NCBI GenBank assembly: GCA_937899725.1
Contig: CALCCA010000150.1
Coordinates: 1-54,980, forward strand
DNA length: 54,980 bases
Direction of reading: 5' to 3'
Origin: an uncultured Halomicronema sp.
GTDB lineage: Bacteria; Cyanobacteriota; Cyanobacteriia; Phormidesmidales; Phormidesmidaceae
Shown here: positions 29,644 to 47,662 of the stretch, one piece after another
Layout: the number at the start of each line of letters is the position of its first letter
How positions within the stretch are numbered: position 1 is the stretch's first letter
Program-made: the position numbers and the translations under genes
Notes under the pieces: generated by a model
What the model was told of the DNA's origin: nothing
What the model saw: only the letters and a program-made list of their open reading frames with translations
Database searches by the model: none

Positions 29644-32600
29644 ATGTCTGGGTTAATGGGTTTTGATGAGGCGTTTCGAACAGCTGATTTGGCCGTTCGC
29701 GCAGTTCGCGTTGACGGACTGCGCGATATCGATCGCGTTGTTTTAGAGGGCTCTTGGCATCGTCATACCTATCAAAAAATTGCGGCAGAGGCAGGCTATA
29801 CCGAGGGGTATCTGAGTCGAGACGTGGGGCCAGCGCTATGGACCCTACTGTCTGATGCCTTGGGCATGCAGGTTAAAAAGACGAATTTCCGCACCGCGAT
29901 TGAGCGGTGGTCAGAGCAGATGTTGGCAGAACTCCCGACCACATCGGCTCCAGATTCAGCAGCCAACGGCAATGGTCGCGCGGCGGAGACGACCCTTGTC
30001 GCGGCATCGATGCCTGACGTTGCCAGCTTTTTACCCTTCGATATCTCAGATTTTCGCGGTCGGCAACAGTCGCTAGCCGATTTAGCTGACTGGGTAATCA
30101 ACCATCATGGGCGGCTGTTGTGCCTCTCGGGCATTCCCGGAGTGGGCAAAACTTGGTTGGCAGTCAAGCTAGCGGAGCAAGTGCGGCCCCATTTTCAGCA
30201 GTTTGTCTACCGCGATTTAAGCGATCGCGCCACGCCCTCAGAGCTGCTGGGAGACTTGCTGCGAGAGCTGGGCATCGTACCCGACCGGTCTGAGGCCCTA
30301 GCCGAACGGCTAGATTTGCTGACGCAAACGCTGACTCAGCGTAAGTGTTTGATTGTCTTCGACGGCATTGAAGCGGTCTATCGCCCACACATGCTGGCAG
30401 GCACCTACGATGCTCGCTTTACCGACTACCGTGAGATCTTAGACACCTTAGCGAGTCGTGAGCACCCCAGCTGCGTCGTGTGGGTGGGGCGCGATCTACC
30501 CCGTGCGGCTCTGCCGATTACCGGCTCAGGCTGTCGGCTATTTTGTGTGGAGGGCTTAGATCAGACTGAACTCTCGACCCTGGCAGTTTGGCCACCCGAG
30601 TTGACCGCTACCGAGTCGGATTGGCAATTGCTGAGCCATCACTATGGCGGCATCCCCGCCCTGATACTGGCGGAAGTCGCCCCTCGCATCGCCTCTTTTG
30701 GCCATCGGTTAACGGCTTGTTTAGACGCTTTGCAGCTAGAAACTCAACTGATTCAGACCTATATTGAGACCTGGTTAACGCCATTGTCAGACGTTGAGTG
30801 GCAGGTTCTGACCTGGATGATGCTGGGCCAGCAGCCGCTATCGCTACAGCAAGTCAGTCACTATCTGAATACGTCGATGGCGTTGGGGGCCGTTGAGTCG
30901 TTAGGCGACCGGGGCATCTGTCACTCGCGGGTCGAGACGGGAGCAGATGCCGTCTGGGAATTGGCGTTGCCGGAGCTGCTGTCGCCCTATCTCCGCGATC
31001 GCTTTTTGCAAGCCTTTGCCGCCGCTGATGAAGCTCAGCAGTGGGAGCTGCTCGATCACTATCCGTTGCTGCAGGCGAATGCCCCGGAGATGATTCGCCA
31101 ATGGCAGCGGCAAGCTCTCTTAGGAGCCGTATCCTCGTTGCTGGAAGCCACCTATCGTCAACCAGCGGAGCAGGAACGCTTCTTGCGTCGGGCTTTGCAA
31201 GCGAGTCAGGCACCGGCGCAGCGGGCCGCGGCCGAGGGCTATCGGGCGGGCAACCTGGTGAATTTAGCGCAGTACTGGCAACGCTCTTTAGTGGATATCG
31301 ATTTCCACTCACTGCAGCTGCGCGACGCTGACTTGCAGTCTGACCTCTTTCAAGGCGTCTCGTTTGCTGGGGCTGATCTGCAGCAAACATTATTAGCCAA
31401 ACCGATGGGGCAGTGCCCAGTCATTGCGATCAACGCTCACCAGAACGAAATCGCGGTGGGTGATCAAGATGGTCGGCTGCTGTTGTGGAACCGCCAGAAC
31501 GGTCGCCTGCAGCAGGCCATGTTGACCGTGACGTCGGCCATTCGAGCAATCACGTTTAGTATCGACGGCTATACCCTGGCCGAAGGTCGTCAGGATGGCA
31601 CCATTCGCCTTTGGGATCTTCAGTCTGAATATGGCCCAGAGCTATTTGCCAACACCGCTGATGAGGCGCTCACCACCCTCGCCTTTAGCCCCGATAAGCA
31701 GCTTTTAGTGGGCGGTGATGAGGCTGGCAACCTTTATGTTTGGCGACTCGCTTCGGGGGAGCAACTGCACTGTATTGCCGCCCACAGTGCGGCAGTGACC
31801 GCAATTGCGATTAGCCCCTGCAGTCAATTTCTCTTGACCTGTGGAGAAGACTGCGCCGCCGTCGAGTGGCAGCTCGCTAGTGGCGAAGCCACTCAGCGGT
31901 TTCAAGGGCGACTTACCAGCCGCTTGGGCACCGTCGCGTATCTCCCAGGCGTGCCCCCCAACCGCCTGCGTGCCGTCGTCATTGGCCGTGACGAAGGGCA
32001 GTTAGTGATTTGGGATCTCACCTCAGAACGTCCGTTGAAAGTCATGCAAGAGCCCTGCGATTTGTTCATGACGTTGACCTTGAGTCCCAATGGTCGTTAT
32101 TTAGCCGCCAGTGACATTAGTAATACTGTGTCAGTTTGGGAGGTTGATTCGCGAGCACGGCTCTATCAAATTTCAGCCCCCAGCGCCCCTGTCGAATCGC
32201 TCGTGTTTAGCCCCGACAGCCGCGAGTTGATGACCGGGGGTGACTATATGGTGCAGCGGTGGCATGCCTACTCTGGGCAGTGTTTACGGATCTGGCGCAG
32301 CGATCGCCACCCGGCCAAAAAACTGGCTTTAGCGACTCACCCCCTGCGGCTGTTGAGCTACCACGATGACCAAACGGTCAGGTGTTGGCAGCATGCGGCG
32401 GAGCGACAGCGGTGGCTGCCTCAAGCCCGCCTCCAACTACCGGACGGTAGTCTGGCTGAGCTACTGGCGACAAGTCAGTCCGGGCACTATTGGGCAGTGG
32501 GCACCGCCGCCGGGCAGATCGTCATTTGGGATTGCCGTCAATCACTTTGGCTGGACTGGTCGATGCGCTTACCCAAAAGCATTACGGCCCTCGCCTTTGA

Positions 32601-33294
32601 TCGGGCAGGCACCTTGCTAGCGGCGGGAGATATGACCGGAACGGTAGCCCTTTGGGATTTACCGAACCGAGTGTTTTGCTGGCAACAGCAGCAGACTCAC
32701 ACTGACCCCGTGATGGCCCTAGCATTTACCCCGGATGGGCAACGCATTTACAGTGGCAGTCGCGATCGCACCATCCAAGGCTGGGACTTTGAGGGGCAGG
32801 CGATTGCCCAGCTATCCGACCATCGTCGCCGGGTGCATACGCTTTGCCTATCTGCCGATGGCGACTATTTATATAGCGGCAGCTACGACGGCACTGTGCG
32901 GTGCTGGCAGCTCTCCGATCACACTTGCGTCAAGACTTGGCAAAAGCAAGATCTCTACATTCATGAGATCGCTTTAGATGAGCAGCATCGCCCCGTGGTT
33001 CTCATGAGCGATACCCAAACGGTAGAACTTTGGGAACTTGATACGGATACCTGTCGCGCCACCTTTACCCCCCATGCGGAAGCAAACTGGCACATCAGTA
33101 CAAGTCCCGATGGCCAGGCGATCGCCTGTGCTAGCCAAAACGGTGACATTAATATCTGGTCGCTGGCCACGGGCCAAAAGCAAGGTCAGCTGCGGGTCGA
33201 TCGCCCCTATGAAGGGATGCAGATCGGCGGCTCTCAGGGGCTGACCGACTCAGAGCGACAGATGCTGTATTCCCTCGGAGCCACAGACTATTAA
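29644..33294 (+). CDS. STAND NTPase: N-terminal helical domain, NB-ARC, WD40 propellers
   Basis: This 1,216-residue cytoplasmic protein has three parts. Residues 1-95 (DEAFRTADLAVRAVRVDGL, YQKIAAEAGYTEGYLSRDV) resemble the helix-turn-helix-like N-terminal domain of vWA-MoxR-associated proteins. About 140-450 is an NB-ARC NTPase with P-loop GIPGVGKT at 163-170 and Walker B LIVFDG near 236, followed by helical winged-helix and linker regions. A short pentapeptide-like strip (LRDADLQ, FAGADLQ) lies at about 560-580. About 590-1195 holds some fourteen WD40 repeats with typical VxAIAFSPDG and xxLWDL elements, probably two propellers. By analogy with other STAND proteins, ligand binding to the WD40 part would drive ATP-dependent oligomerisation and activate the N-terminal domain. 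Signalling and phage defence are both possible. The neighbours give no clear choice. Confidence 0.9.
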   Translation: MSGLMGFDEAFRTADLAVRAVRVDGLRDIDRVVLEGSWHRHTYQKIAAEAGYTEGYLSRDVGPALWTLLSDALGMQVKKTNFRTAIERWSEQMLAELPTTSAPDSAANGNGRAAETTLVAASMPDVASFLPFDISDFRGRQQSLADLADWVINHHGRLLCLSGIPGVGKTWLAVKLAEQVRPHFQQFVYRDLSDRATPSELLGDLLRELGIVPDRSEALAERLDLLTQTLTQRKCLIVFDGIEAVYRPHMLAGTYDARFTDYREILDTLASREHPSCVVWVGRDLPRAALPITGSGCRLFCVEGLDQTELSTLAVWPPELTATESDWQLLSHHYGGIPALILAEVAPRIASFGHRLTACLDALQLETQLIQTYIETWLTPLSDVEWQVLTWMMLGQQPLSLQQVSHYLNTSMALGAVESLGDRGICHSRVETGADAVWELALPELLSPYLRDRFLQAFAAADEAQQWELLDHYPLLQANAPEMIRQWQRQALLGAVSSLLEATYRQPAEQERFLRRALQASQAPAQRAAAEGYRAGNLVNLAQYWQRSLVDIDFHSLQLRDADLQSDLFQGVSFAGADLQQTLLAKPMGQCPVIAINAHQNEIAVGDQDGRLLLWNRQNGRLQQAMLTVTSAIRAITFSIDGYTLAEGRQDGTIRLWDLQSEYGPELFANTADEALTTLAFSPDKQLLVGGDEAGNLYVWRLASGEQLHCIAAHSAAVTAIAISPCSQFLLTCGEDCAAVEWQLASGEATQRFQGRLTSRLGTVAYLPGVPPNRLRAVVIGRDEGQLVIWDLTSERPLKVMQEPCDLFMTLTLSPNGRYLAASDISNTVSVWEVDSRARLYQISAPSAPVESLVFSPDSRELMTGGDYMVQRWHAYSGQCLRIWRSDRHPAKKLALATHPLRLLSYHDDQTVRCWQHAAERQRWLPQARLQLPDGSLAELLATSQSGHYWAVGTAAGQIVIWDCRQSLWLDWSMRLPKSITALAFDRAGTLLAAGDMTGTVALWDLPNRVFCWQQQQTHTDPVMALAFTPDGQRIYSGSRDRTIQGWDFEGQAIAQLSDHRRRVHTLCLSADGDYLYSGSYDGTVRCWQLSDHTCVKTWQKQDLYIHEIALDEQHRPVVLMSDTQTVELWELDTDTCRATFTPHAEANWHISTSPDGQAIACASQNGDINIWSLATGQKQGQLRVDRPYEGMQIGGSQGLTDSERQMLYSLGATDY

Positions 33295-33308: not shown

Positions 33309-35411
33309 TCACTCCAGCGTGAATTCCTCAGCGGTATCAACCAGGGTTAACAACGGGCCCAGTTGTTCTTGACCGTTCACTGCCAAATCGCTGTGACATA
33401 AAATGACTTGCTCGGTAGCGCGCCCCAGTAAGTCTCGCAAGATGCGCTCTAGACGGGCTTCGTGACTGCGTTCAATAAAATCAACGGGCCAGGGCTGCCC
33501 ATGCCGCTGCTGCAAGAACATGGGATAGCCAAACAACGCATCCGTGCCCGTGAGCCAGCGCGGTGAACTGGCATCGAGCCAAAACTGCCAGCGATGGTGC
33601 AGCCGCTGCGATCGATATTGAAACACGGTTGAGAGTGTCACGCCCTGCTGTCCGTGCTCTAATGGCTTCACCGGAAACGGGTTGGCCGCCACAATCCCCT
33701 GCAGCAGCAGCGCCAAAAAGCGACCTTCGGGGGACAGCGGGGAGGCTGGAGGATCGGATTCCAGACGCTGCTGCTGTCGGAGACGGCCCTGCACCTGCCA
33801 AAAATGCTGAGCTGTTTCCATCAGTTCTCGCAGGGCGGCCAGCTGGTCATAGGGGAGATAGTTGCCCCGCCACAAAAAAGATTGAATCGTGCGATCGATC
33901 AAGCTGACGGGGCTGGTAATCAAGCGCTGCTGGAGCGCCTGCCGCTGCTGGGCGATCCAGTCGCGTAGCACGTTGTAGGCATCAGTAGCTCGATAGCCGA
34001 GCCGATCCCACCGGGGGAACTCGCTCACGGCCAAAAGATCGGGGCGCTGAGGATCAGGATAAAAACAGTGGTCAACAATCAGCTCAGCCCGCACCGGATC
34101 GATTTGCACACGCTCAAACCACGACTGGCTCGGGTCACCCTGGGTCGACTGGCTAAGCACCACCAGCATTTCGGCGACGGCATCTTTGGTTAAAAACCGC
34201 CCCAGCGCCGGATAGATGAAGGGCACCATGGTCAAGATGGCGCGCACCAGGGGAGTGCTGACCAGCGGTCGCTGATCGTTGAGCGAGGCCACCGGAATGT
34301 GTTGTTTCTGCAAGATTTCGGCCAGGGTATAGCGGGCGATCGCATCAAACCCTGGCCCAATTACCGCAATGTCGCCAGGGGTAACTTGCTCCTGTTGGAT
34401 GGCGGCCGCGATCGCCTCGGCGGTTTGGCGCAACAGCTCTCCCCGCGAGGTGGCTTGAATCACCTGCACCGCCGACATCGGCTCTGGCACCGCCAGCGGA
34501 TCGAGGACGGCAGTGACGATGGGGTCGGCCCAAGCACTGGCTAAGGACTCGGCAACGACGGGAGTGAGCTCTTCGACCGTTTTTGCCCCCGCCCGGAGCA
34601 GTCCTAACGCCTCGGGGTCAGCCCCGACCCCGAGGCGAATCTTACCGTGGGGATTCCACGTAACGGCGGTCGGCAGCTGCCACGCGTCGGCCTGCCGCCA
34701 CAGCTCAGCAAAAATCGCCGGATACTCGTCAAAATCATCGGCCATCAGACCACAAAAGCGCTCGGCGAATTTCGCCTGATACAGCGGCTGAGGCAGCAAA
34801 TGTCGCCAATACAGTTCGGTAGCGATGCTGTAGGTCAAAAAGCTCTGGCTCAAGCACCAGTCGCGCCATTGCATGACAGCTTGGGCGATCGCCCCCCAAA
34901 CGTCAGCCGAGGCAATGCCCCCGGGCAGGGCCGCAACCAACAGCTCCGGCAAAGCCTCTGCCGGGGTACCGCTAGTCGCCGCTAGTTGCAAAAAATCGAG
35001 CGATCGCCGCACGGTTTGCGTTTCAGTCCAACCGGGGACCTCTAAGGTGCCGCGATCCAGCTGATCACGCCAGAGTTGAGTCGCTAACTCCTGCTCATTT
35101 TCGGGCCGCAACGGCATTGGAAATTGCGGGCTGAGCCCTAAGGTTTCCACCAATAGGGGCCAAAACAAGGTCACCTCGTTTTGAATGAACCCGGCTGGCG
35201 TGGCCGTCGTGATGGGGAGGGTCGCCGGTAAGCTATCGACCAGGCGATCGCTCAGGGTGAGGCGATTATCGCCATTAGCTGCGAATAATAAAAAGACAGC
35301 CCCCGCTCGACGGCCCGCCATTGGTGCCGTCGCTATTTCGGCAATATGGGCCAGCAACCGAGTGGTTTTGCCACTCCGGGTGGGGCCTTCAATCCAGATG
35401 AGATCTGCCAT
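33309..35411 (-). CDS. Degenerate UvrD/RecB-like P-loop protein
   Basis: This protein of about 700 residues begins ADLIWIEGPTRSGKTTRLLAHI, a good Walker A motif. The later order of segments follows superfamily 1 helicases. The Walker B/DEAD-like motif reads LMADDFDEYPAIF near residue 225, with Asp-Asp where active helicases have Asp-Glu. The Q/motif III region (GKIRLGVGADPEAL) also lacks the usual GDxxQ. A motif-V-like stretch is DIAVIGPGFDAIARY. It keeps nucleotide binding but may not unwind DNA. Cyanobacterial relatives are usually called recombinase family proteins. I chose ATG 35411 because it sits directly before the first strand; GTG/TTG-type starts up to 35447 are possible. It is tail-to-tail with the STAND gene, 14 bp apart. 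Confidence 0.75.
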   Translation of the reverse strand: MADLIWIEGPTRSGKTTRLLAHIAEIATAPMAGRRAGAVFLLFAANGDNRLTLSDRLVDSLPATLPITTATPAGFIQNEVTLFWPLLVETLGLSPQFPMPLRPENEQELATQLWRDQLDRGTLEVPGWTETQTVRRSLDFLQLAATSGTPAEALPELLVAALPGGIASADVWGAIAQAVMQWRDWCLSQSFLTYSIATELYWRHLLPQPLYQAKFAERFCGLMADDFDEYPAIFAELWRQADAWQLPTAVTWNPHGKIRLGVGADPEALGLLRAGAKTVEELTPVVAESLASAWADPIVTAVLDPLAVPEPMSAVQVIQATSRGELLRQTAEAIAAAIQQEQVTPGDIAVIGPGFDAIARYTLAEILQKQHIPVASLNDQRPLVSTPLVRAILTMVPFIYPALGRFLTKDAVAEMLVVLSQSTQGDPSQSWFERVQIDPVRAELIVDHCFYPDPQRPDLLAVSEFPRWDRLGYRATDAYNVLRDWIAQQRQALQQRLITSPVSLIDRTIQSFLWRGNYLPYDQLAALRELMETAQHFWQVQGRLRQQQRLESDPPASPLSPEGRFLALLLQGIVAANPFPVKPLEHGQQGVTLSTVFQYRSQRLHHRWQFWLDASSPRWLTGTDALFGYPMFLQQRHGQPWPVDFIERSHEARLERILRDLLGRATEQVILCHSDLAVNGQEQLGPLLTLVDTAEEFTLE

Positions 35412-35531
35412 GTTCAAAGCTGATGGCGAGCAACTGTAGCGCGCCAAGAAATTTTATGCTCGGCTTCAAACCTAATCCAGACCCATTTCACGCGGTTAGG
35501 CAGAGCCAGTAGCGGTTATGCTGATGCCCCA

Positions 35532-38756: not shown

Positions 38757-40130
38757 TCAGAAGATCGGAATAGTGGCATCGATGCTAATGCCAAAAAAGG
38801 TGTCGTCAAACGAAATACGCGGTTCGGTCGATCGCCCGTAGCTCAGCCCCCCAAACAGAGAGATTCGCACCGCAGGCGTAATCGCATAGCGCAGCTGCCC
38901 CGTAATGCGCTGATAGGTTTCGTGACGGCTTTGGCGAGTAAAGTCTGAGATTGTTAGGCGGTAGCCAATGCCGGCATCCCACCGGGGCGAGATGCGATAC
39001 CCCAAATAGGTGCCCACCGAATTTAAGACATTGCTGAACTGATCAGGGTCGCTGAAGTAGATTTGCCCCTGATAAAAGCTATCTAGCGTCAGTTGTGGCG
39101 TCAGCACATCGCGGCGATTGAGGGTCAGCTCGACACCGCTATTGCTAAAAAACTGGTCTGTATAGCCCTCTCGAAACAGCAGTTGACTACTAAAACTCAG
39201 CTGCCCGTAAACGCGATCGGAAAAGCGATGACGAACCCCAGCGCGAAATCTCAGTTCGTCGTAGTTAGAGCGATTCTGTTCTTCATAGCGCAGCAAGTTG
39301 GTTTCAGCCGAAACCAAGAGATTAGTCTGTGGGCCAATGCTCGGAAAAGCGATGAGGCTAATGCCTGGGCGGACAAAATTATCGCCAAATCGGCCCTGAA
39401 TCGGATCCTCTACCAAAAAAACATTGTCACTGTTAGAGGCCGTCACATAGGTTGAGAGAAACACCACCGGGCGGCGGCCTGGAGCAGGCACAATCTGCCG
39501 CAGCTGCAAAATGCCCAGCTCTGGATCTTGTAGAGGATTCCGGAGTTGCAGGGTGCCGAGTTCAGGATCGACGCGGGGGTCGGCCACCTGAATCATGCCC
39601 AGCTCAGGGTCAAGCCCGCCCTCAGGCAGCGCCCCATCGGCAGGCTGGGGTTTATTTTGGGGTCGGTCTGGGGGCGTAATGGCAGTCGGCCAAGGGCTTC
39701 CCGACCGCGCTCCGGCAAAAAAGCGCTCTAATCGGGGCGCGACACTTTTCGGTTCTTTTTTAGCGGGTGCCGAAGCGGGGGGCGGCACCTGACTCAAACT
39801 CGAGGGAGGTAGCGACGCTAGCCTCTCTGGCGGGGCAGCGGGGGCAGGGCTCGCAGATGCGGCGGATGTTAGCAAGCGATCGCCCATAACTGAGGGACCG
39901 ATAACGCCAGCAGCGGCGAATGGCGTCACATCATTTTGAGTCGTCTCTAAGGAGCCAGGCAGCACTGGCACCGCAGCGACTGACGGCGGCATTTTAGAGT
40001 CATCTACAGTTTTATAGGAGACAATAGCAGGGGGCAACGGGTTAGCGTGGGCGTGGGCTTGTTGTAAGCTCAAAACCAAAGGTAACCAGCCAATGACCCA
40101 GCATTTAGAAAGGTAGATCGGGTTGGGCAC
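38757..40130 (-). CDS. Outer-membrane beta-barrel protein with DPELG repeats
   Basis: This 457-residue protein begins with a signal peptide (about 1-28, ending AHA) from a GTG start with GGAG six bases upstream. Residues 30-170 are low-complexity, rich in Pro, Ala and Ser and probably disordered. Three tandem 14-residue units, DPELGMIQVADPRV, DPELGTLQLRNPLQ and DPELGILQLRQIVP, follow at about 173-214. From about 220 to the end, alternating amphipathic strands (VFLSTYVTASN, LLVSAETNLLRYE, YGQLSFSSQLLF, DAGIGYRLTISDF, ISLFGGLSYGRS) end in the aromatic ATIPIF, as expected of an outer-membrane barrel. The cargo is unknown. It is divergent from a FecR-domain gene 257 bp away, and both are part of an envelope-protein neighbourhood. 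Confidence 0.85.
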   Translation of the reverse strand: MPNPIYLSKCWVIGWLPLVLSLQQAHAHANPLPPAIVSYKTVDDSKMPPSVAAVPVLPGSLETTQNDVTPFAAAGVIGPSVMGDRLLTSAASASPAPAAPPERLASLPPSSLSQVPPPASAPAKKEPKSVAPRLERFFAGARSGSPWPTAITPPDRPQNKPQPADGALPEGGLDPELGMIQVADPRVDPELGTLQLRNPLQDPELGILQLRQIVPAPGRRPVVFLSTYVTASNSDNVFLVEDPIQGRFGDNFVRPGISLIAFPSIGPQTNLLVSAETNLLRYEEQNRSNYDELRFRAGVRHRFSDRVYGQLSFSSQLLFREGYTDQFFSNSGVELTLNRRDVLTPQLTLDSFYQGQIYFSDPDQFSNVLNSVGTYLGYRISPRWDAGIGYRLTISDFTRQSRHETYQRITGQLRYAITPAVRISLFGGLSYGRSTEPRISFDDTFFGISIDATIPIF

Positions 40131-40387
40131 AAATAGCTCCGCAAACGGTGGCGACTCTATTGTTTAGCCGAGTAGGGAGTCACACATTGCCGATATCAAA
40201 ATTTGAGACCTGTAGAAACGCAGTATTTTGTGAAGGGTTGAGTCCATCGGCGAGCACCCGATCAGCATCAGGCTCAGCCCCGACCAGTTATCAAAACCGA
40301 GGCTAAGGGGAGTAATCAGATCGCCGAAGCGCTCAAACTAAGAATTCAAAGTGTCCAACAGTTGCAAGTGATCAAATTCAAATGTAG

Positions 40388-41509
40388 ATGCCCATGAGCC
40401 AATATGACCTCCGACGGGGCGGCCTGGCAAGTATAGTTTATGTGCTTTTGTGGGCGATCGCGCCAGAGCCGGCGATCGCCGAAGCAGTTTTGACCCAGGC
40501 AGCGGTGGAATCGTTTCGAAACCGAGTCGAACTTTCACGGCAGGGGCAGCCCCCCCGGCTCGTTCAGACGAGCGACCAACTTGGCCTCGGTGATGTCATT
40601 CGCACCCGTCAGGCGGCTCAAATTGACTTGCGTTTTGACGAGGGGTCGCTAGCGCGAGTGGGTGAGTCAACCACCTTCTGGTTTGTGCCCAACACGCGCA
40701 ACTTGCGGCTGGCGAATGGGACAGCATTGCTCTTGATGCCGCCAGGTAACGGCCCGACGACGATTGAAACCCCCAACGTCGTCACCAGCATCCAAGGAAC
40801 GGCGGTGGTGGTGCGTCATCTGCCGATAGTAAAAGAAGCCACGACTTTCCCTGAGTTGACCGCCGAATTTAGCCGCAACACGGGGCGAACTGCCGTCATG
40901 GTTTTGACCGATGCCGGTGGCCCGACCGCCGTCGAACTCCGCGATGGCCGCAGCGTTGAGCTATCGGCAGGCCAAATGGCAATCGTCGATGACGGCAATC
41001 TATTTTTATTCGAGTTTGATCTGGCGTTGTTCTATGAAACCAGCCCCCTAGTCGCAGGACTGTTTTTAGATGATCCAGATTATCCCGGCGATCGCCGGCC
41101 CACGGACCCGGTTCGAGATGAGGCGATCGATGACCTCAATCAACAGCCAAATTTTGCAGGCGAATACCTGCTCGATCCCAACTTTCTTGATCCTGCCCAA
41201 GATCTGGCGATAGAAGATGGTTGGTTGTTTCCGGTAACACCTAGCCCCCCCCGGCCCAACGAACCGGCACCCGAAATCAATGACAGCGCTGAGCCAGGAG
41301 CCTTCAACAGCCAACCCCACATCAGCTCTGATCGAGCCGTCAACTTAACGCCAACGCTCGTCAAGTCACCACCCACAGCAGCCCCAGCCACGCCGGGCCA
41401 AAATGAGGCGAATCCCCTCGGTGACGAAGAATTGCCTTCCGGCGTACTCAACACCCCCGTTGAAGGCGGGCCGCCGTCAGCACCATCCGCCCCTGAATCG
41501 GCCCCATGA
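40388..41509 (+). CDS. FecR-domain periplasmic protein, copy 1
   Basis: This 373-residue protein has a signal peptide (about 1-31, cleavage near AIA-EAV) and a FecR domain at about 40-150. The core is IRTRQAAQIDLRFDEGSLARV, FWFVPNTRNLRLANGTALLL and the ending TIETPNVVTSIQGTAVVVRH. About 150-260 continues as a beta-rich region (ELRDGRSVELSAGQMAIV). The last 100 residues are Pro-rich and disordered, ending APSAPESAP. Unlike classical FecR it has no transmembrane anti-sigma segment, so a stand-alone periplasmic sensor or scaffold is more likely. It is paralogous to the next FecR gene over the whole folded part. ATG at 40394 is an alternative start. Confidence 0.88.
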   Translation: MPMSQYDLRRGGLASIVYVLLWAIAPEPAIAEAVLTQAAVESFRNRVELSRQGQPPRLVQTSDQLGLGDVIRTRQAAQIDLRFDEGSLARVGESTTFWFVPNTRNLRLANGTALLLMPPGNGPTTIETPNVVTSIQGTAVVVRHLPIVKEATTFPELTAEFSRNTGRTAVMVLTDAGGPTAVELRDGRSVELSAGQMAIVDDGNLFLFEFDLALFYETSPLVAGLFLDDPDYPGDRRPTDPVRDEAIDDLNQQPNFAGEYLLDPNFLDPAQDLAIEDGWLFPVTPSPPRPNEPAPEINDSAEPGAFNSQPHISSDRAVNLTPTLVKSPPTAAPATPGQNEANPLGDEELPSGVLNTPVEGGPPSAPSAPESAP

Positions 41510-41984
41510 AATAGGGTCAGGTGAGTAGAGCATCGGCCATTTAGCCCATCTCGTTTTGGGAACCGGCGATCGATGACAAGTAACACTTCACGCGGAAAAC
41601 TGCTGATGTTTACAGCCAGAGGGGAAGCACGCATATGCTTTGCACTCAGGTGACTAGAAGCCTTAAAAGTGAAAGAACCGCCATCAAACTTCATAAAGTC
41701 TTTACGGAAACCTGTTAAGCGCTTACAAAGATTTAAGAAACTCCCAGTAAGATATGAGGGGAATTACGGAAACTTTTTCCAACTTCTCTGCTAATTGCGT
41801 AAATTTGTAATTCCTGCCGGTATTAAACATTTGAAGCATTGGCCCAAGATAAAGTTTTCGTTGAGATGGTTCAATTTGTTGCCAGCGATCGACCGTCGGT
41901 TGATCTGAGGGCTGAGTGAGAACGTCAGTTAACCGGCTGACACGGGTGCTGAGCATTGCTGATTCGAATTTCAAGCGGGTAACT
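41510..41984. other. Region between the two FecR genes
   Basis: It is AT-rich at 41640-41840. The ten bases TTACGGAAAC occur twice in direct orientation, at 41702-41711 and 41764-41773. A dyad GATCGACCG-T-CGGTTGATC (41887-41905, one mismatch) lies about 80 bp before the second FecR start. An 83-codon minus-strand frame (41723-41974) reads as plausible protein but has no recognised domain or ribosome-binding site. Confidence 0.5.
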
Positions 41985-43460
41985 ATGACGAGTTTTTTCT
42001 TTACTCCCCGATTTCGACGGCTTGGTCTGCCCAGCCTGCTATGTGGTGTGGCCAGTGCGCTAATCCCCAGCCTGGCTTATGCAGAGGTACCCCTGACTCG
42101 GGCCGATATCGAATCTATCTATAATCGGGTCGAATTCATTCCGGAGGGGCAGCAAGCCCGTCGAGCCAACCTGAATGACCGGTTGGCACTAGGCGATGCC
42201 CTGCGTACGGCAGATAACGCAAGAGCTGAATTACGCTTCAACGATGGCTCTTTGGCGCGCGTCGGTGAGCGAGCCACTTTTTGGTTTGTGCCCGACACTC
42301 GAGATTTTCGACTCTCCAACGGTACGGCTCTGTTCTTGATTCCTCCGGATCGCGGTCCCAGCAATATTCAAACTCCGAGCGCTGTGACTGGTATTCAGGG
42401 CACAGCATTGGTGGTTCGCCACATTCCAGGCGACTGCGACCTCGATCTTTTAGAAGAATGCCCCGGTCGCACCATCGTAATGGTGCTGACCGATAGCCCC
42501 AAAGGACCGGTCGAAGTCTCAACGCTTGATGGTCGGACCGAAGCCTTGACGGCAGGTAACTTAGCGGTCATTCAGGGAGAATCGATTCAGGTTCTGGAAT
42601 TTGACTTGGCCCTGTTCTACCAAACCAGTCCACTGGTGGAGGGGCTTGATCTCAATAACCCCAACTTCGAAGGCAACGGTCAGCCGACCGATCCCGTGCG
42701 CCAGGAAACCTGGGAGGGTCTGCAGTCGCAGCAAGGGTTTGAAGGCAGCTATCAATTGAACCCTGATGTCGTTAGCCTTGACGCCACCTTAGGCGTGACC
42801 ACCAGTTGGCTACTGCCCGCAGGGAATGTCGAAGTACCACAGTTGCCGGGCGCATTTTTACGAGACCCGATCGCCAATGGCAATACCGTGAGCGATCAAA
42901 TGGGGCAGAGCACGACTCAGCCCGGGGCTTCAATGGCTTCGCCATCGAATCCAGTCTCGAGCACTAGCCCCGCTCGCGATGCCCTGCCAGCAGGCGTTTT
43001 ACGCCCGACAGGGCCGAGCGGGCAACCCCCAACGACCGCGACGCCACAGCCACCGATGCCACCCATTGGGGGCGGGGGAACGCCGCCGCCATCAACCGGT
43101 AACCCGAGCAACCCGATTGGCACGCCGCCCCCAACCGTGGAACCAGTCAACCCGATTGGCACGCCGCCCCCAACCGTAGAGCCAGTCAACCCGATTGGCA
43201 CCCCACCTCCCATTGGCACGCCGAATGAACCCGCGCCCGCGCCCGTAGAGCCATTCAACCCGACGGGTCAACCTGTGCCCATCACCAATGAGGTACCGGC
43301 TGCGGCCAACCCAGTCCAGCCCGAACCGGCGGTGTTTAATCCCATCGGCACCCAGGTACCCGAAAATTCAGTGCCCGCTGGCGTGATTACAGCTGATCCT
43401 GAGGCCCCGGCATCTGAGGGGGAAGTCCCGGTGACGACTGACCCACCAGAGGCTCAATAA
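41985..43460 (+). CDS. FecR-domain periplasmic protein, copy 2
   Basis: From the ATG at 41985 this protein has 491 residues. I prefer this start to one 69 bases upstream because it places a clean signal peptide (MTSFFFTPRFRRLGLPSLLC, then SALIPSLAYA-EVP) at the N-terminus. The FecR domain matches copy 1 closely (RFNDGSLARVGERATFWFVP, LSNGTALFL, VTGIQGTALVVRH). It carries an extra insert with two cysteines, GDCDLDLLEECPGR, absent from copy 1. The folded part ends near residue 290. The tail is a long Pro/Gly/Thr-rich segment with a 13-residue unit NPIGTPPPTVEPV repeated in tandem. Secretion to the periplasm is predicted; the Pro-rich tail could span or bind peptidoglycan, which is inference. 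Confidence 0.88.
   Translation: MTSFFFTPRFRRLGLPSLLCGVASALIPSLAYAEVPLTRADIESIYNRVEFIPEGQQARRANLNDRLALGDALRTADNARAELRFNDGSLARVGERATFWFVPDTRDFRLSNGTALFLIPPDRGPSNIQTPSAVTGIQGTALVVRHIPGDCDLDLLEECPGRTIVMVLTDSPKGPVEVSTLDGRTEALTAGNLAVIQGESIQVLEFDLALFYQTSPLVEGLDLNNPNFEGNGQPTDPVRQETWEGLQSQQGFEGSYQLNPDVVSLDATLGVTTSWLLPAGNVEVPQLPGAFLRDPIANGNTVSDQMGQSTTQPGASMASPSNPVSSTSPARDALPAGVLRPTGPSGQPPTTATPQPPMPPIGGGGTPPPSTGNPSNPIGTPPPTVEPVNPIGTPPPTVEPVNPIGTPPPIGTPNEPAPAPVEPFNPTGQPVPITNEVPAAANPVQPEPAVFNPIGTQVPENSVPAGVITADPEAPASEGEVPVTTDPPEAQ
43110..43226. repeat. 39-bp in-frame tandem repeat in FecR copy 2
   Basis: Units at 43110-43148 and 43149-43187 are nearly identical, and a third diverging unit starts at 43188. 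Each encodes NPIGTPPPTVEPV. The high identity at DNA level indicates recent expansion by slippage or recombination. Confidence 0.85.
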
Positions 43461-43720
43461 ACGGGCTGAGTGACTTTCAGCAGCCATAAGACTGCGCTCA
43501 ACGCTCTAGACAGGCAGGTGGAGCGGTCTGTTATAGCTTGTCAGAGAAAGCAAAGTCTAGGCCACGGACACGATGTTTAGGCATGGCTCTTGCCCCGACT
43601 AGATGAACAACACACCGCTTGGGAAAGTGGAGCATAGATTCTTCTAGTCGGCAGTGTCGAGCAATTGTTCTCCAGACCGGCAACGCCAACGCTGATGGAC
43701 GGCCTCACCTAACCAGCCGT

Positions 43721-45856
43721 CTATTGCCCAGACAAGTTAGCCTGAATGACGCGATAAACCTCAACCAGGGCTTGGCGTCCCTTGAGGGGGAGCTTACCCC
43801 ATGATTCGACCTGAAACGTGTCCTGCAGATACTGGTAAGTATCCTGGCCGATCAGCGTCCGACAGGGGGTCGTTTGTCGATGTTTGTCTAAGCTTTCGAG
43901 ACGCGAGGCGATGTTAACACTGTCGCCAATCACGCCATATTCCATCCGGTGATGGCCGCCGAGGCTGCCCACGACGATCGGCCCAGTGAAGATGCCGACT
44001 CGCATTTCTAACAGCGGCAACTGTTGGCTGGTGCGCTCTTGGTTAATTTGGGCAAGGCGATCGCCCATGCTGAGAGCACAGGCGACAGCGGCCTGGGCAT
44101 CGCGGGCAATGCCCTCCGGGGTAGTGCTGGCAATGGGCACCCCAAACACGGCTAGCAGGCCATCACCGGTAAATTTATTGACGATGCCATGGTGTAATTG
44201 AATCTCTTCGGTCATGGCTTCTAAGTAGTGATTGAGCCATTCGAGCAGTTGCTCGGGGGGCGCGGTTTCGGCCAGGGTGCTGAAGCCTCTGATGTCGGTA
44301 AACATCATGGTGGCGACCATTTTTTGACCCGGCAATTTACCTGACTTTAAGAGGCGATCGCGATTGTCCCATAACGCTTGCGCGATGGCCGGTGAGGCCG
44401 TTTGACCGAGCAACGTCTGCATCATCTGCCGCTGCCGGAAGGATTGCTGCGCCTGATACGCCAACACCACACTGCTAGTGCCCACAACGGTGAGGGCAGG
44501 CGCGACCAGGGGCAGCCAGCCCTGGGTTAAAAAGAGGCCATAGCCCCCCGCCGCAATACCGACAAACAGACTCGATTGACTCGCCGTCAACATCACCGGA
44601 TGACGCAGGTACCAAGCCAGCGTGCCCCCCAGCAGCCCCCACCCGAGACACCAGAGCCACTCTTGCCAGGGCTCACTGGTGCCCATTAGCGGGCGATCGC
44701 CCAGGGCCAGATCTAGCAGTTGGCTCACCATTTGGCCATGCACGACCACCCCCGGCATTTGATGCGTGTCATCCTGGGTGCCCGCCGTAAAGGGGGTATA
44801 AAACAGGTCTTTGACGCTGGGCGCGGTGATGCCGATCAGCACAATTTTGTCTTTGACCCAAGCGGGGTCGACCTCATCGTTGAGCACCTCTAGTAGCGTC
44901 ACCTCGCGGCTGGGAGTGAGGCGATCGCGATAGTCCAGCATGATCTGATAGCCCGCCGTATCCTCCACCGCGTAGCCGCCAGCCCCGACGGTAAGGGGAA
45001 ACAGCGTTGTGGAGCCGAGCTGCATATAGTCAGGATTGTGGGGACTAGCCGTCGGCCCCATATCTTGCGTCGCTAAATAGCGGGTGGCCAACTGCAGCGA
45101 AAACGAAAACAGCGTGACGTTGCCGGTGGGGGTGACCTGCTCGGCGATCAGCAGGGCGCGTCGCACCTTGCCATCGGGGTCAACCACAACATCGTTAAAA
45201 CTCACCTGGGCCGGATCCATATCGGGTGGGGGCGGAATCCCCGGCGCGCCCGCGGGGTTAGACAGTTGAGTAATCACCACCACATTCGGAGCCTGCAGCG
45301 ATCGCAGCAGCTCGTCTCGACCGGGCGGCTTGGGAATGGCGCGAAAGATATCTAACCCAATGGCCACCGGCTCGTGCTGCTGCAGCTTATCCAAGGCCTG
45401 AGCCACGGTGCCATCAGAGAGGGGAAACTCGGCTAAAGCATCTAGATCAGCTTCCGTAACCGTCACGATCAGCAGGCGATCGTCGTTGGCCAGGGGCATG
45501 GCCTCTTGACGCAGGCGCATCATCTGGTCATAGGTTTTTTGTTCCAGACTTTCTAGCACCCCCAGCTGGGCCACCCCCATCACGCTGGTGGCCACGGCCA
45601 GGCCCGTCGTGACGACGACCGCCATATTTTTACTATGGGCCTGGAGCCACTGCCATGACTGCCGAGCGACGGGCAAAAGCGACCCCAAATGATGCGGCTT
45701 CAGGCTAACCACAGAAGCTTTTCCTAATTGATGTGGTAGTTGCTGCAAGCACCCTGAGAGCGATGAGTCATTTCGCAGCCCTCTTACAGACAGCAGTTCA
45801 GCACTGTCTCGCGGCGAGAACCTGAATCCCAACTGCTCGCCAGCGCTGCTGGTCAC
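43721..45856 (-). CDS. CHASE2-domain class III adenylate/guanylate cyclase
   Basis: This 711-residue membrane sensor makes cAMP or cGMP. After a 75-residue cytoplasmic lead, a transmembrane helix (about 78-98) is followed by an extracytoplasmic CHASE2 domain (about 100-390: KTYDQMMRLRQ, DDRLLIVTVTEADLD, PVAIGLDIF, KDKIVLIGITAPSVKDLF). Three transmembrane helices follow at about 395-475, then the catalytic domain at 510-700. The metal-binding aspartates are in MMFTDIRGFS and FTGDGLLAVFG. The Lys in IVNKFTGDG and the GDSVNIASRLE segment with its Asn and Arg are intact, so activity is expected; Lys and Asp/Ser-type residues favour adenine. The start is GTG. It converges on FecR copy 2 with 260 bp between, within the barrel-FecR neighbourhood. 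Confidence 0.93.
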   Translation of the reverse strand: MTSSAGEQLGFRFSPRDSAELLSVRGLRNDSSLSGCLQQLPHQLGKASVVSLKPHHLGSLLPVARQSWQWLQAHSKNMAVVVTTGLAVATSVMGVAQLGVLESLEQKTYDQMMRLRQEAMPLANDDRLLIVTVTEADLDALAEFPLSDGTVAQALDKLQQHEPVAIGLDIFRAIPKPPGRDELLRSLQAPNVVVITQLSNPAGAPGIPPPPDMDPAQVSFNDVVVDPDGKVRRALLIAEQVTPTGNVTLFSFSLQLATRYLATQDMGPTASPHNPDYMQLGSTTLFPLTVGAGGYAVEDTAGYQIMLDYRDRLTPSREVTLLEVLNDEVDPAWVKDKIVLIGITAPSVKDLFYTPFTAGTQDDTHQMPGVVVHGQMVSQLLDLALGDRPLMGTSEPWQEWLWCLGWGLLGGTLAWYLRHPVMLTASQSSLFVGIAAGGYGLFLTQGWLPLVAPALTVVGTSSVVLAYQAQQSFRQRQMMQTLLGQTASPAIAQALWDNRDRLLKSGKLPGQKMVATMMFTDIRGFSTLAETAPPEQLLEWLNHYLEAMTEEIQLHHGIVNKFTGDGLLAVFGVPIASTTPEGIARDAQAAVACALSMGDRLAQINQERTSQQLPLLEMRVGIFTGPIVVGSLGGHHRMEYGVIGDSVNIASRLESLDKHRQTTPCRTLIGQDTYQYLQDTFQVESWGKLPLKGRQALVEVYRVIQANLSGQ

Positions 45857-46891: not shown

Positions 46892-47662
46892 ATGGGGTTG
46901 TTTGATCGAGTCAGCCGAGTTGTTCGCTCTAATCTCAACGCTGCCGTTAGTAGCGCCGAAGATCCCGAAAAGATCTTGGAACAAGCCATCATCGACATGC
47001 AGGAAGACCTGGTGCAGATGCGTCAGGCTGTCGCCAAGGCGATCGCCTCGCAAAAACGGGTTCAACAGCAGTATGAGCGCGCTCACTCCGAAGCAAACAC
47101 TTGGCAACAGCGCGCCCAGCTAGCGCTGCAAAAGGGCGACGAAAACCTAGCGCGGGAAGCCTTAACCCGTAAAAAGACGCAGAGTGAAACTGCGACAGCC
47201 CTCAAAGCTCAGCTCGATACCCAGCTCACCCAGGTTGATAGCCTCAAGAAAAATCTGATTGGTTTAGAAAGTAAAATTTCTGAAGCCAAGACCAAGAAAG
47301 ATATGCTCAAGGCTCGCGTCAGTGCCGCCAAGGCCAACGAGCAGTTACAAAGCACCATGACCTCCATGAACACGAACAGTGCCATGGGGGCCTTTGAGCG
47401 CATGGAAGAAAAAGTCCTGATGATGGAAGCGAAGTCGCAAGCGGCTGACGAGCTCGCGGGCTCTGATCTCGAAAGTCAGTTCGCGGCCCTAGAAGCCGGG
47501 GGCGATGTCGATGACGAACTCGCGGCGATGAAAGCCCAGCTAGCCGGTGGATCGACCAGTCAAAGCCAACTACCCGCCGCTGACGAGCCGGTCGCGGCCC
47601 CAGCCGATGCCGTCGTCGACGCGGAGCTAGAAGCCCTCAAAACTCAACTCGATAACGTCTAA
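46892..47662 (+). CDS. vipp1: Vipp1/IM30 (PspA-family membrane-remodelling protein)
   Basis: Vipp1 is an ESCRT-III-like protein that assembles rings and rods on thylakoid and plasma membranes and supports their biogenesis and repair. The 256-residue protein starts with the amphipathic membrane-binding helix MGLFDRVSRVVRSNLNAAVS. The PspA core signature DPEKILEQAIIDMQEDLVQMRQAVA and long coiled coils follow. A linker and a final helix (VDAELEALKTQLDNV) after residue 220 form the C-terminal extension that separates Vipp1 from PspA. The linker here is unusually rich in Ala and Asp. The ATG has the Shine-Dalgarno AGGAAGGA, and a strong terminator follows the stop. Confidence 0.96.
   Translation: MGLFDRVSRVVRSNLNAAVSSAEDPEKILEQAIIDMQEDLVQMRQAVAKAIASQKRVQQQYERAHSEANTWQQRAQLALQKGDENLAREALTRKKTQSETATALKAQLDTQLTQVDSLKKNLIGLESKISEAKTKKDMLKARVSAAKANEQLQSTMTSMNTNSAMGAFERMEEKVLMMEAKSQAADELAGSDLESQFAALEAGGDVDDELAAMKAQLAGGSTSQSQLPAADEPVAAPADAVVDAELEALKTQLDNV

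Follow-up and report, generated by a model that had tools for sequence, protein, structure and literature searches.

A conserved outer-membrane barrel and FecR unit in an uncultured Halomicronema and its probable CHASE2 Ser/Thr kinase partner in trans

Introduction

In Sinorhizobium meliloti, signalling depends on an outer-membrane protein, NsrA, and an inner-membrane one, CyaK (PMC7529298), sensing through NsrA leads CHASE2 cyclases to make more cyclic AMP (cAMP) (PMC13001267), and a FecR domain occurs in another cAMP-regulated protein, SMc02177 (PMC5498481). A cluster in Campylobacterota combines a CHASE2 adenylate cyclase, a phosphodiesterase, a FecR-domain outer-membrane protein and a tetratricopeptide repeat (TPR) protein, for which one pathway has been proposed (PMC9239204). 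The BiofilmReg operon of Burkholderia and Pseudomonas encodes a LysM-FecR protein, a CHASE2 histidine kinase and a response regulator (PMC5192318). Systems of this kind are thus already known, and FecR-CHASE2 gene pairs were also found in this study on Ruegeria and Variovorax plasmids. We analysed a stretch of 54,980 nucleotides (the window), which is contig 150 of the 216 contigs of a 7.0 Mb uncultured Halomicronema genome (G000), and in which genes for an outer-membrane beta-barrel, two FecR-domain proteins and a CHASE2 class III nucleotide cyclase lie together (Table 1). We propose, with a probability of about 0.6, that the barrel supplies the outer part and the FecR pair the periplasmic part of a conserved signalling system, the partner of which is a kinase encoded in trans, and that the cyclase is a chance neighbour.

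The only CHASE2 match on pSymB of S. meliloti falls within a CHASE2-cyclase gene (L281:10902-12851), which shares one base with the gene for a 1219-residue protein (L281:7243-10902) containing a FecR domain (57 bits, residues 85-179), TPRs and a weak barrel match (Pfam, 12.3 bits). We took this pair to be nsrA and cyaK; the record is unannotated and the identification is our own. It was based on the sole CHASE2 match and on gene order, nsrA reportedly lying immediately upstream of cyaK in the 2018 work of Garnerone. It was based also on protein length, with a barrel at 600-1200 (PMC7529298). The two systems share a FecR domain and an outer-membrane barrel on the sensing side (the barrel being predicted in the window), a CHASE2 protein on the inner membrane and adjacent genes, and their FecR regions align (hhalign probability 82%, E 1e-5). 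They differ in that FecR, TPRs and barrel form one chain in the presumed NsrA whereas the window has separate barrel and FecR open reading frames (ORFs), and in that the output there is cAMP whereas cyanobacterial barrel loci most often carry a Ser/Thr kinase. A CHASE2 cyclase gene is adjacent in the window as well, but its CHASE2 domain is of a FecR-free lineage and that of CyaK of a FecR-linked one. The original prediction for the window, a relay from barrel to FecR to cyclase with a cyclic-nucleotide output, was offered as a new variant; NsrA-CyaK is already such a relay (PMC7529298), and the presumed NsrA carries a FecR domain. Directly upstream of the presumed nsrA and cyaK, on the other strand, a gene encodes a PycTM (Pycsar effector) domain protein (L281:6624-7232(-)).

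The Campylobacterota cluster resembles the window in its clustered FecR and CHASE2 genes but differs in phylum and in its cyclase output, and no separate barrel family of this kind is described in the accessible text (PMC9239204). In the BiofilmReg operon FecR also lies beside CHASE2, both periplasmic, but the output is a histidine kinase, the FecR protein carries a peptidoglycan-binding LysM domain and the accessible text describes no barrel (PMC5192318). The FecA-FecR-FecI and PupR systems share the FecR fold (6ovk) and the logic of an outer-membrane protein acting on a periplasmic FecR; the anti-sigma domain, TonB-dependent receptor and sigma factor of FecA-FecR-FecI were not found at the window locus, where eight neighbouring proteins were scanned. 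CHASE2 Ser/Thr kinases have been listed in cyanobacteria, alr1869 and all4838 of Anabaena PCC 7120 among them (PMC2176072); they have the same domain pair as the barrel-linked kinases described below, and FecR and the outer membrane are absent from the accessible main text of that paper. A literature search, thin on subscription journals, found no paper joining barrel, FecR and CHASE2 kinase in cyanobacteria. Within the literature searched, three features are new: a separate barrel family in cyanobacteria, the almost unfailing linkage of this family to FecR, and an output through a Ser/Thr kinase.

Results

The barrel and FecR genes are a conserved unit

We sampled 145 genomes of the class, with FecR in 90 and CHASE2 in 133. 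A profile of the window barrel (33 rows) matched 56 of the 145 genomes and 38 of 87 genera, nearly always as a single copy; named relatives found with the barrel include an uncultured Halomicronema metagenome-assembled genome (91%) and Leptolyngbya sp. SIOISBB (65%). The 145 genomes were searched from the barrel to remove the bias of starting from FecR, and a FecR gene lay within 1.5 kb at 52 of 58 barrel loci. Five of the other six loci are cut by contig ends, which leaves L255, with no FecR nearby, as the only true exception; a rerun with a lax FecR hidden Markov model (HMM) found no FecR at the six. At L242 a Pro-rich frame just upstream of the barrel runs off the contig, which fits a cut FecR gene. 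The barrel and FecR genes are thus a real conserved unit across many cyanobacteria, to which the window, with a barrel of this family (A1) beside a FecR gene, belongs.

The reciprocal, FecR-first scan covered 140 loci, to which further loci were added from the barrel-first search; all FecR loci were drawn from the better-scoring part of the FecR matches listed, the weaker ones lying outside the sample, and the counts of FecR loci given here hold among the matches listed. The HMMs were built in this analysis: a first FecR HMM missed FecR in 4 of the 140 loci and a second recovered all four, while one listed FecR place outside the 140 (G066:C105) is covered by L243. A CHASE2 gene lay within 1 kb of FecR in 72 of the 140 loci, and a homologue of the window barrel was present in 32, always beside a FecR gene. 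Over the combined set, 86 of 162 FecR loci had CHASE2 within 1.5 kb, made up of 26 of the 52 barrel loci and 60 of the 110 that lack a barrel, against about 2.05 such pairs expected by random placement of all 202 FecR matches in the 90 genomes (a rough estimate). Barrel, FecR and CHASE2 are therefore linked far above chance, so that the count of co-occurrence that the original prediction had proposed as its own check, with no conserved co-occurrence as the contrary outcome, did not go against the general idea. Ten CHASE2 loci taken regardless of FecR (L266-L275) included none with FecR; that list was sorted by Pfam score, and since FecR-free copies score higher in Pfam it is uninformative on the share of CHASE2 genes that have a FecR partner.

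FecR genes of the 140 loci are of two kinds, one short (mostly about 250-350 amino acids) and one long and Pro-rich; 62 of 102 short FecR genes are immediately followed on the same strand by a CHASE2 gene. At the 110 loci without a barrel the CHASE2 partner carried HisKA in 29, GGDEF/EAL in 17, a cyclase in 11 and a kinase in one; two were unassigned and 50 had no CHASE2 within 1.5 kb. At the barrel loci, of the 26 CHASE2 genes beside FecR, 20 encode Ser/Thr kinases and six encode cyclases, as called by Pfam for all six cyclases and 7 of the 20 kinases and by phmmer with one kinase seed for the other 13. Two main gene orders recur, a kinase convergent with FecR (11 loci) and kinase>FecR>barrel with all genes in one direction (nine loci), so the linkage survives rearrangement; four further loci have the order FecR<barrel>FecR>cyclase, and in two, the window and L129, a cyclase is convergent with the FecR pair. 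In genome G121 a Pkinase-TPR gene lacking CHASE2 (L078:3253-5166(+)) lies tail to tail with the barrel gene.

A CHASE2 Ser/Thr kinase is the candidate partner in trans

No FecR-lineage CHASE2 gene stands beside FecR in the window. A gene on another contig (L021, G000:C144:6122-8530) encodes a CHASE2 and Pkinase protein with HRDIK and DFG motifs, and in all three CHASE2 trees described below it is sister to the barrel-linked kinase L115. Its orthologues (70-98%) are present in all six genus genomes searched, G000 included, and none lies at the barrel locus; the copy in G146 has one internal stop.

We built a profile from the N-terminal CHASE2 domains of the barrel-linked kinases and L021 (20 rows). 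A CHASE2 protein of this type (at least 271 bits) was present in 56 of 56 barrel genomes and in 16 of 89 others, 11 of which belong to one family (f23); with the 20 profile-source genomes removed, the count was 36 of 36 barrel genomes. Genomes below this class scored from 239 to 209 bits and then under 140. At a threshold of at least 500 bits the counts were 44 of 56 and 1 of 89. No solved structure matched the profile by sequence. From these sequence comparisons, the fitting inner-membrane partner in G000 is probably L021, acting in trans.

The neighbouring cyclase belongs to a FecR-free CHASE2 lineage

By domains (Pfam CHASE2, 224 bits; Guanylate_cyc, 86 bits) and motifs (FTDI at 519, KFTGDG at 561, VIGDSVN at 642 and ASRLE at 650), the product of 43721-45856 is predicted to be a class III nucleotide cyclase. 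We take these motifs to be the metal Asp, Lys and transition-state motifs.

A tree of 106 CHASE2 rows (of 109, three having been dropped by domain length), built by a quick method with a broader HMM, split into a FecR-linked side and a FecR-free side (SH-like approximate likelihood ratio test, 100). The 84 rows of the FecR-linked side comprise 58 short-FecR loci, 21 barrel-type kinases, the cyclases L101, L190, L236 and L237, and the kinase L021; the 22 rows of the FecR-free side comprise 13 loci without FecR, seven copies from the window's own genome, the window cyclase and L129. Apart from the last two, no gene on the FecR-free side is adjacent to FecR. A careful tree of 48 rows gave the same split (support 100/94); most rows had been lost to its length filter, its HMM came from own-genome copies only, mostly FecR-free, and some short search loci (L028, L038, L200-L203) bore wrong FecR labels. 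The split was kept in a 73-row tree that took in CyaK and further proteobacterial rows, in which the Ruegeria and Variovorax domains, CyaK and one Azospirillum domain all fell on the FecR-linked side. A FecR-free profile gave the window CHASE2 domain 429 bits, and the barrel-linked and short-FecR CHASE2 profiles gave it 36 and 95, a gap inflated by the inclusion of three orthologues of the window cyclase in the FecR-free profile.

FecR was found on three contigs only of G000, which has 11 CHASE2 genes; of the eight away from FecR, L021 alone falls on the FecR-linked side, the other seven on the FecR-free side. Two other FecR-CHASE2 pairs were noted in this genome. On contig C94 (L013:5289-8802) a FecR gene is followed by a FecR-lineage CHASE2 cyclase gene, a better candidate for a FecR-to-cAMP pair than the window cyclase, and on contig C209 (L014:991-4846) a FecR gene directly precedes a CHASE2-GGDEF-EAL gene, a pair leading from FecR to cyclic di-GMP (c-di-GMP).

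Orthologues of the window cyclase (71-73%) occur in G082, G012, G060 and G145. The orthologue lies beside the barrel and FecR genes in G082 and on other contigs in G012 and G060. The closest relative, G146, yielded no orthologue (best match 37%) in an assembly that is 90% complete and whose barrel contig ends inside FecR 1. In the barrel tree G000 groups with G146, and G145 with G012 and G060, G082 being placed in neither group with confidence; on this basis a single gain in the genus of the linkage of the cyclase to the barrel and FecR genes, and a single loss of it, may account for the pattern. Over the survey about 1.35 CHASE2 genes outside FecR pairs are expected beside FecR by chance, and one event, in two genomes, was seen, so chance suffices to account for this adjacency. 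Given its FecR-free lineage, the orthologues away from FecR and the chance estimate, the window cyclase is probably a bystander and not the output of the barrel-FecR unit. In G145 the barrel locus is surrounded, over about 100 kb (C1, about 4.04-4.14 Mb), by several CHASE2-like matches; regional clustering of this sort may exist in the genus and would raise the chance of accidental adjacency.

The proteins of the window locus

All four ORFs named in the original prediction are present (Table 1).

Table 1. Coordinates of the barrel, FecR and cyclase genes and their parts in the window.
Feature	Coordinates	Strand	Remarks
Outer-membrane beta-barrel gene	38757..40130	-	457 aa; diverges from the FecR pair
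12-stranded barrel domain	38766..39464	-	Residues 223-455; AlphaFold2 pLDDT (predicted local distance difference test) mostly >90
Three DPELG boxes	39513..39611	-	Residues 174-178, 188-192 and 202-206; end of the disordered N-terminal part
Intergenic region between divergent barrel and FecR 1 genes	40131..40387		Presumed promoters; coordinates only
FecR-domain protein 1	40388..41509	+	373 aa; signal-peptide-like start; Pro-rich
FecR-domain protein 2	41916..43460	+	514 aa; signal-peptide-like start; Pro-rich low-confidence tail
CHASE2 and class III nucleotide cyclase	43721..45856	-	711 aa; convergent with FecR 2

The barrel protein opens with a signal-peptide-like sequence, followed by about 200 low-confidence residues that hold the three boxes, and then the 12-stranded barrel of the AlphaFold2 model. 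Pfam gave only sub-threshold outer-membrane protein matches (DUF2490, 24.1 bits; OMP_b-brl, 20.5 bits) and no TonB plug, and fold searches of the PDB with the model (Foldseek, VIA) returned generic outer-membrane barrels only; in fold it resembles autotransporter and porin barrels. In the last box the Leu-Gly pair is invariant in 33 of 33 aligned relatives, and a literal D[PA]ELG occurs in 20 of the 33.

Both FecR proteins contain Pfam FecR (PF04773; 30.1 and 39.3 bits, cut-off 24). They are paralogous and Pro-rich, as had been predicted, with 43% identity over 353 amino acids and 11.5 and 14.6% Pro. The annotated GTG start of FecR 2 is probably too early, since the first ATG (codon 24, at 41985) sits just before the signal-peptide-like stretch. 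In the FecR 2 model a confident beta-rich domain (about residues 60-275) follows the N-terminal hydrophobic stretch and precedes the tail, and its best PDB matches are anti-sigma proteins, a putative Parabacteroides anti-sigma factor and the cell-surface-signalling domain of PupR (6ovk). Neither FecR protein showed an anti-sigma part (Pfam) or a second membrane segment, each having a single N-terminal hydrophobic stretch. The duplication of FecR in the window may allow it to serve two partners. A third FecR gene similar to FecR 1 and 2 (259-285 bits) was seen in G060 (L087) and G012 (L093), with no barrel or CHASE2 gene in the fetched stretch.

Consistent with the original prediction, Pfam found neither a sigma factor nor a TonB plug in the four proteins and eight neighbouring window proteins; the search for an extracytoplasmic function (ECF) sigma factor covered those eight neighbours and not the remaining ORFs or the rest of the genome. 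NCBIfam gave nothing above cut-off for the four proteins.

Discussion

At the level of the class, a relay from barrel to FecR to CHASE2 is a well supported hypothesis on the comparative data. We propose that the barrel would respond to a signal at the cell surface or within the outer membrane, and that its disordered N-terminal segment with the Leu-Gly box could meet FecR in the periplasm. FecR is predicted to be secreted into the periplasm and to have the fold of cell-surface-signalling domains, and no anti-sigma part was found in it. It would hand the signal on to an inner-membrane protein by way of that protein's CHASE2 domain in the periplasm, and the inner-membrane protein may then switch a cytoplasmic kinase or cyclase. 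In G000 L021 would act in trans, and as this fitting CHASE2 partner is a Ser/Thr kinase the output is likely to be protein phosphorylation. Of the relay originally predicted, the linkage of barrel, FecR and CHASE2 holds in the class, but the part assigned to this particular cyclase is not supported, as its CHASE2 domain is of the FecR-free lineage and its orthologues in G012, G060 and G145 are not beside FecR. The usual CHASE2 protein at barrel loci is a Ser/Thr kinase (20 of 26), an orthologue of which G000 carries on another contig. We regard it as evenly balanced whether this amounts to a widespread cyanobacterial pathway in which the barrel, via FecR, controls a CHASE2 Ser/Thr kinase, kinase and cyclase outputs being swapped behind the same front end.

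Several observations weigh against this proposal, including the position of the window cyclase and of its G082 and G145 orthologues, taken up below. L021 adjoins no FecR gene, its neighbours encoding a tocopherol cyclase, a YgjP-like peptidase, an amidohydrolase and aconitase. The co-occurrence of the barrel with its CHASE2 type (Fisher p 6e-26) ignores relatedness and used a threshold set after the score gap had been seen, and the 271-bit class contains cyclases as well as kinases. At 26 of the 52 barrel-FecR loci no CHASE2 gene was present in the fetched stretch, some stretches being short. An Azospirillum CHASE2 protein without an annotated FecR falls on the FecR-linked side, so that this side is not purely FecR-linked outside cyanobacteria, and no sequence similarity was detected between the cyanobacterial barrel and that of NsrA in a comparison with one sequence on one side. 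The main limits of the analysis are genome relatedness, the quick method behind the full-set tree, the single-seed calls for 13 of the 20 kinases and the choice of FecR loci from the better-scoring matches listed.

One alternative is that the neighbouring cyclase was recruited within the genus as the output of the barrel and FecR, either in place of the kinase or alongside it, and that cAMP carries the message. The cyclase gene is adjacent and convergent, in the exact slot and orientation of the kinase gene in sister genera; the same four-gene order is kept in G082 (L129), and the G145 orthologue, while not beside FecR, is only about 24 kb from the barrel. Barrel-FecR-cyclase loci with a FecR-lineage CHASE2 domain exist elsewhere in the class (L101, L190, L236 and L237), and NsrA-CyaK provides a precedent. 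Recruitment is nevertheless unlikely in our view, as the window domain itself lies in the FecR-free lineage by tree and by profile score, three of its four orthologues are away from FecR and a single event matches the chance expectation. A cAMP relay through 43721-45856 was rejected as the main explanation on these three grounds, tree, orthologue linkage and chance estimate.

It has also to be considered that the barrel and FecR proteins form a structural or transport unit with no signalling output, for example an export channel or a peptidoglycan tether with a Pro-rich spacer, and that the CHASE2 linkage reflects regulation of envelope genes by nearby sensors. The Pro-rich, low-confidence FecR tail, the long disordered N-terminus of the barrel, its resemblance to autotransporter and porin barrels and the barrel-FecR loci with no CHASE2 gene in the fetched stretch would all fit such a unit. 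We think this quite improbable, because every barrel genome carries the barrel-linked CHASE2 type, the pairing of FecR with CHASE2 recurs with many outputs, also in Proteobacteria, and NsrA acts genetically as a receptor (PMC7529298). Classical Fec-type signalling to an ECF sigma factor appears very improbable indeed: the FecR domain has a PupR-like fold, but a classical Fec system was rejected since its defining parts, an anti-sigma domain with a second membrane segment in FecR, a plug in the barrel and a sigma factor among the eight neighbours scanned, were not found. A conserved signalling system with its partner kinase in trans remains our preferred explanation.

The ligand or signal of CHASE2 has been described as unknown in two papers (PMC10581220, PMC5192318). 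Our data suggest that FecR serves as the read-out of a large and distinct CHASE2 lineage, joined in many cyanobacteria by an outer-membrane barrel; the question of the CHASE2 ligand would then become a testable one of protein contacts. Outputs through a kinase, a cyclase, c-di-GMP and a histidine kinase are all seen with one kind of front end. If the proposal is correct, this is cell-surface signalling with Ser/Thr phosphorylation as its output and not a sigma factor or cAMP. The window also provides a caution, as a choice made by adjacency alone has probably fallen on the wrong CHASE2 gene.

Among the other genes of the window, one of the PspA/IM30 family (46892-47662) begins 1035 bp past the start of the CHASE2 cyclase gene. 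A large WD40-repeat protein is encoded at 29644-33294, and the adjoining 33309-35447 has no Pfam match.

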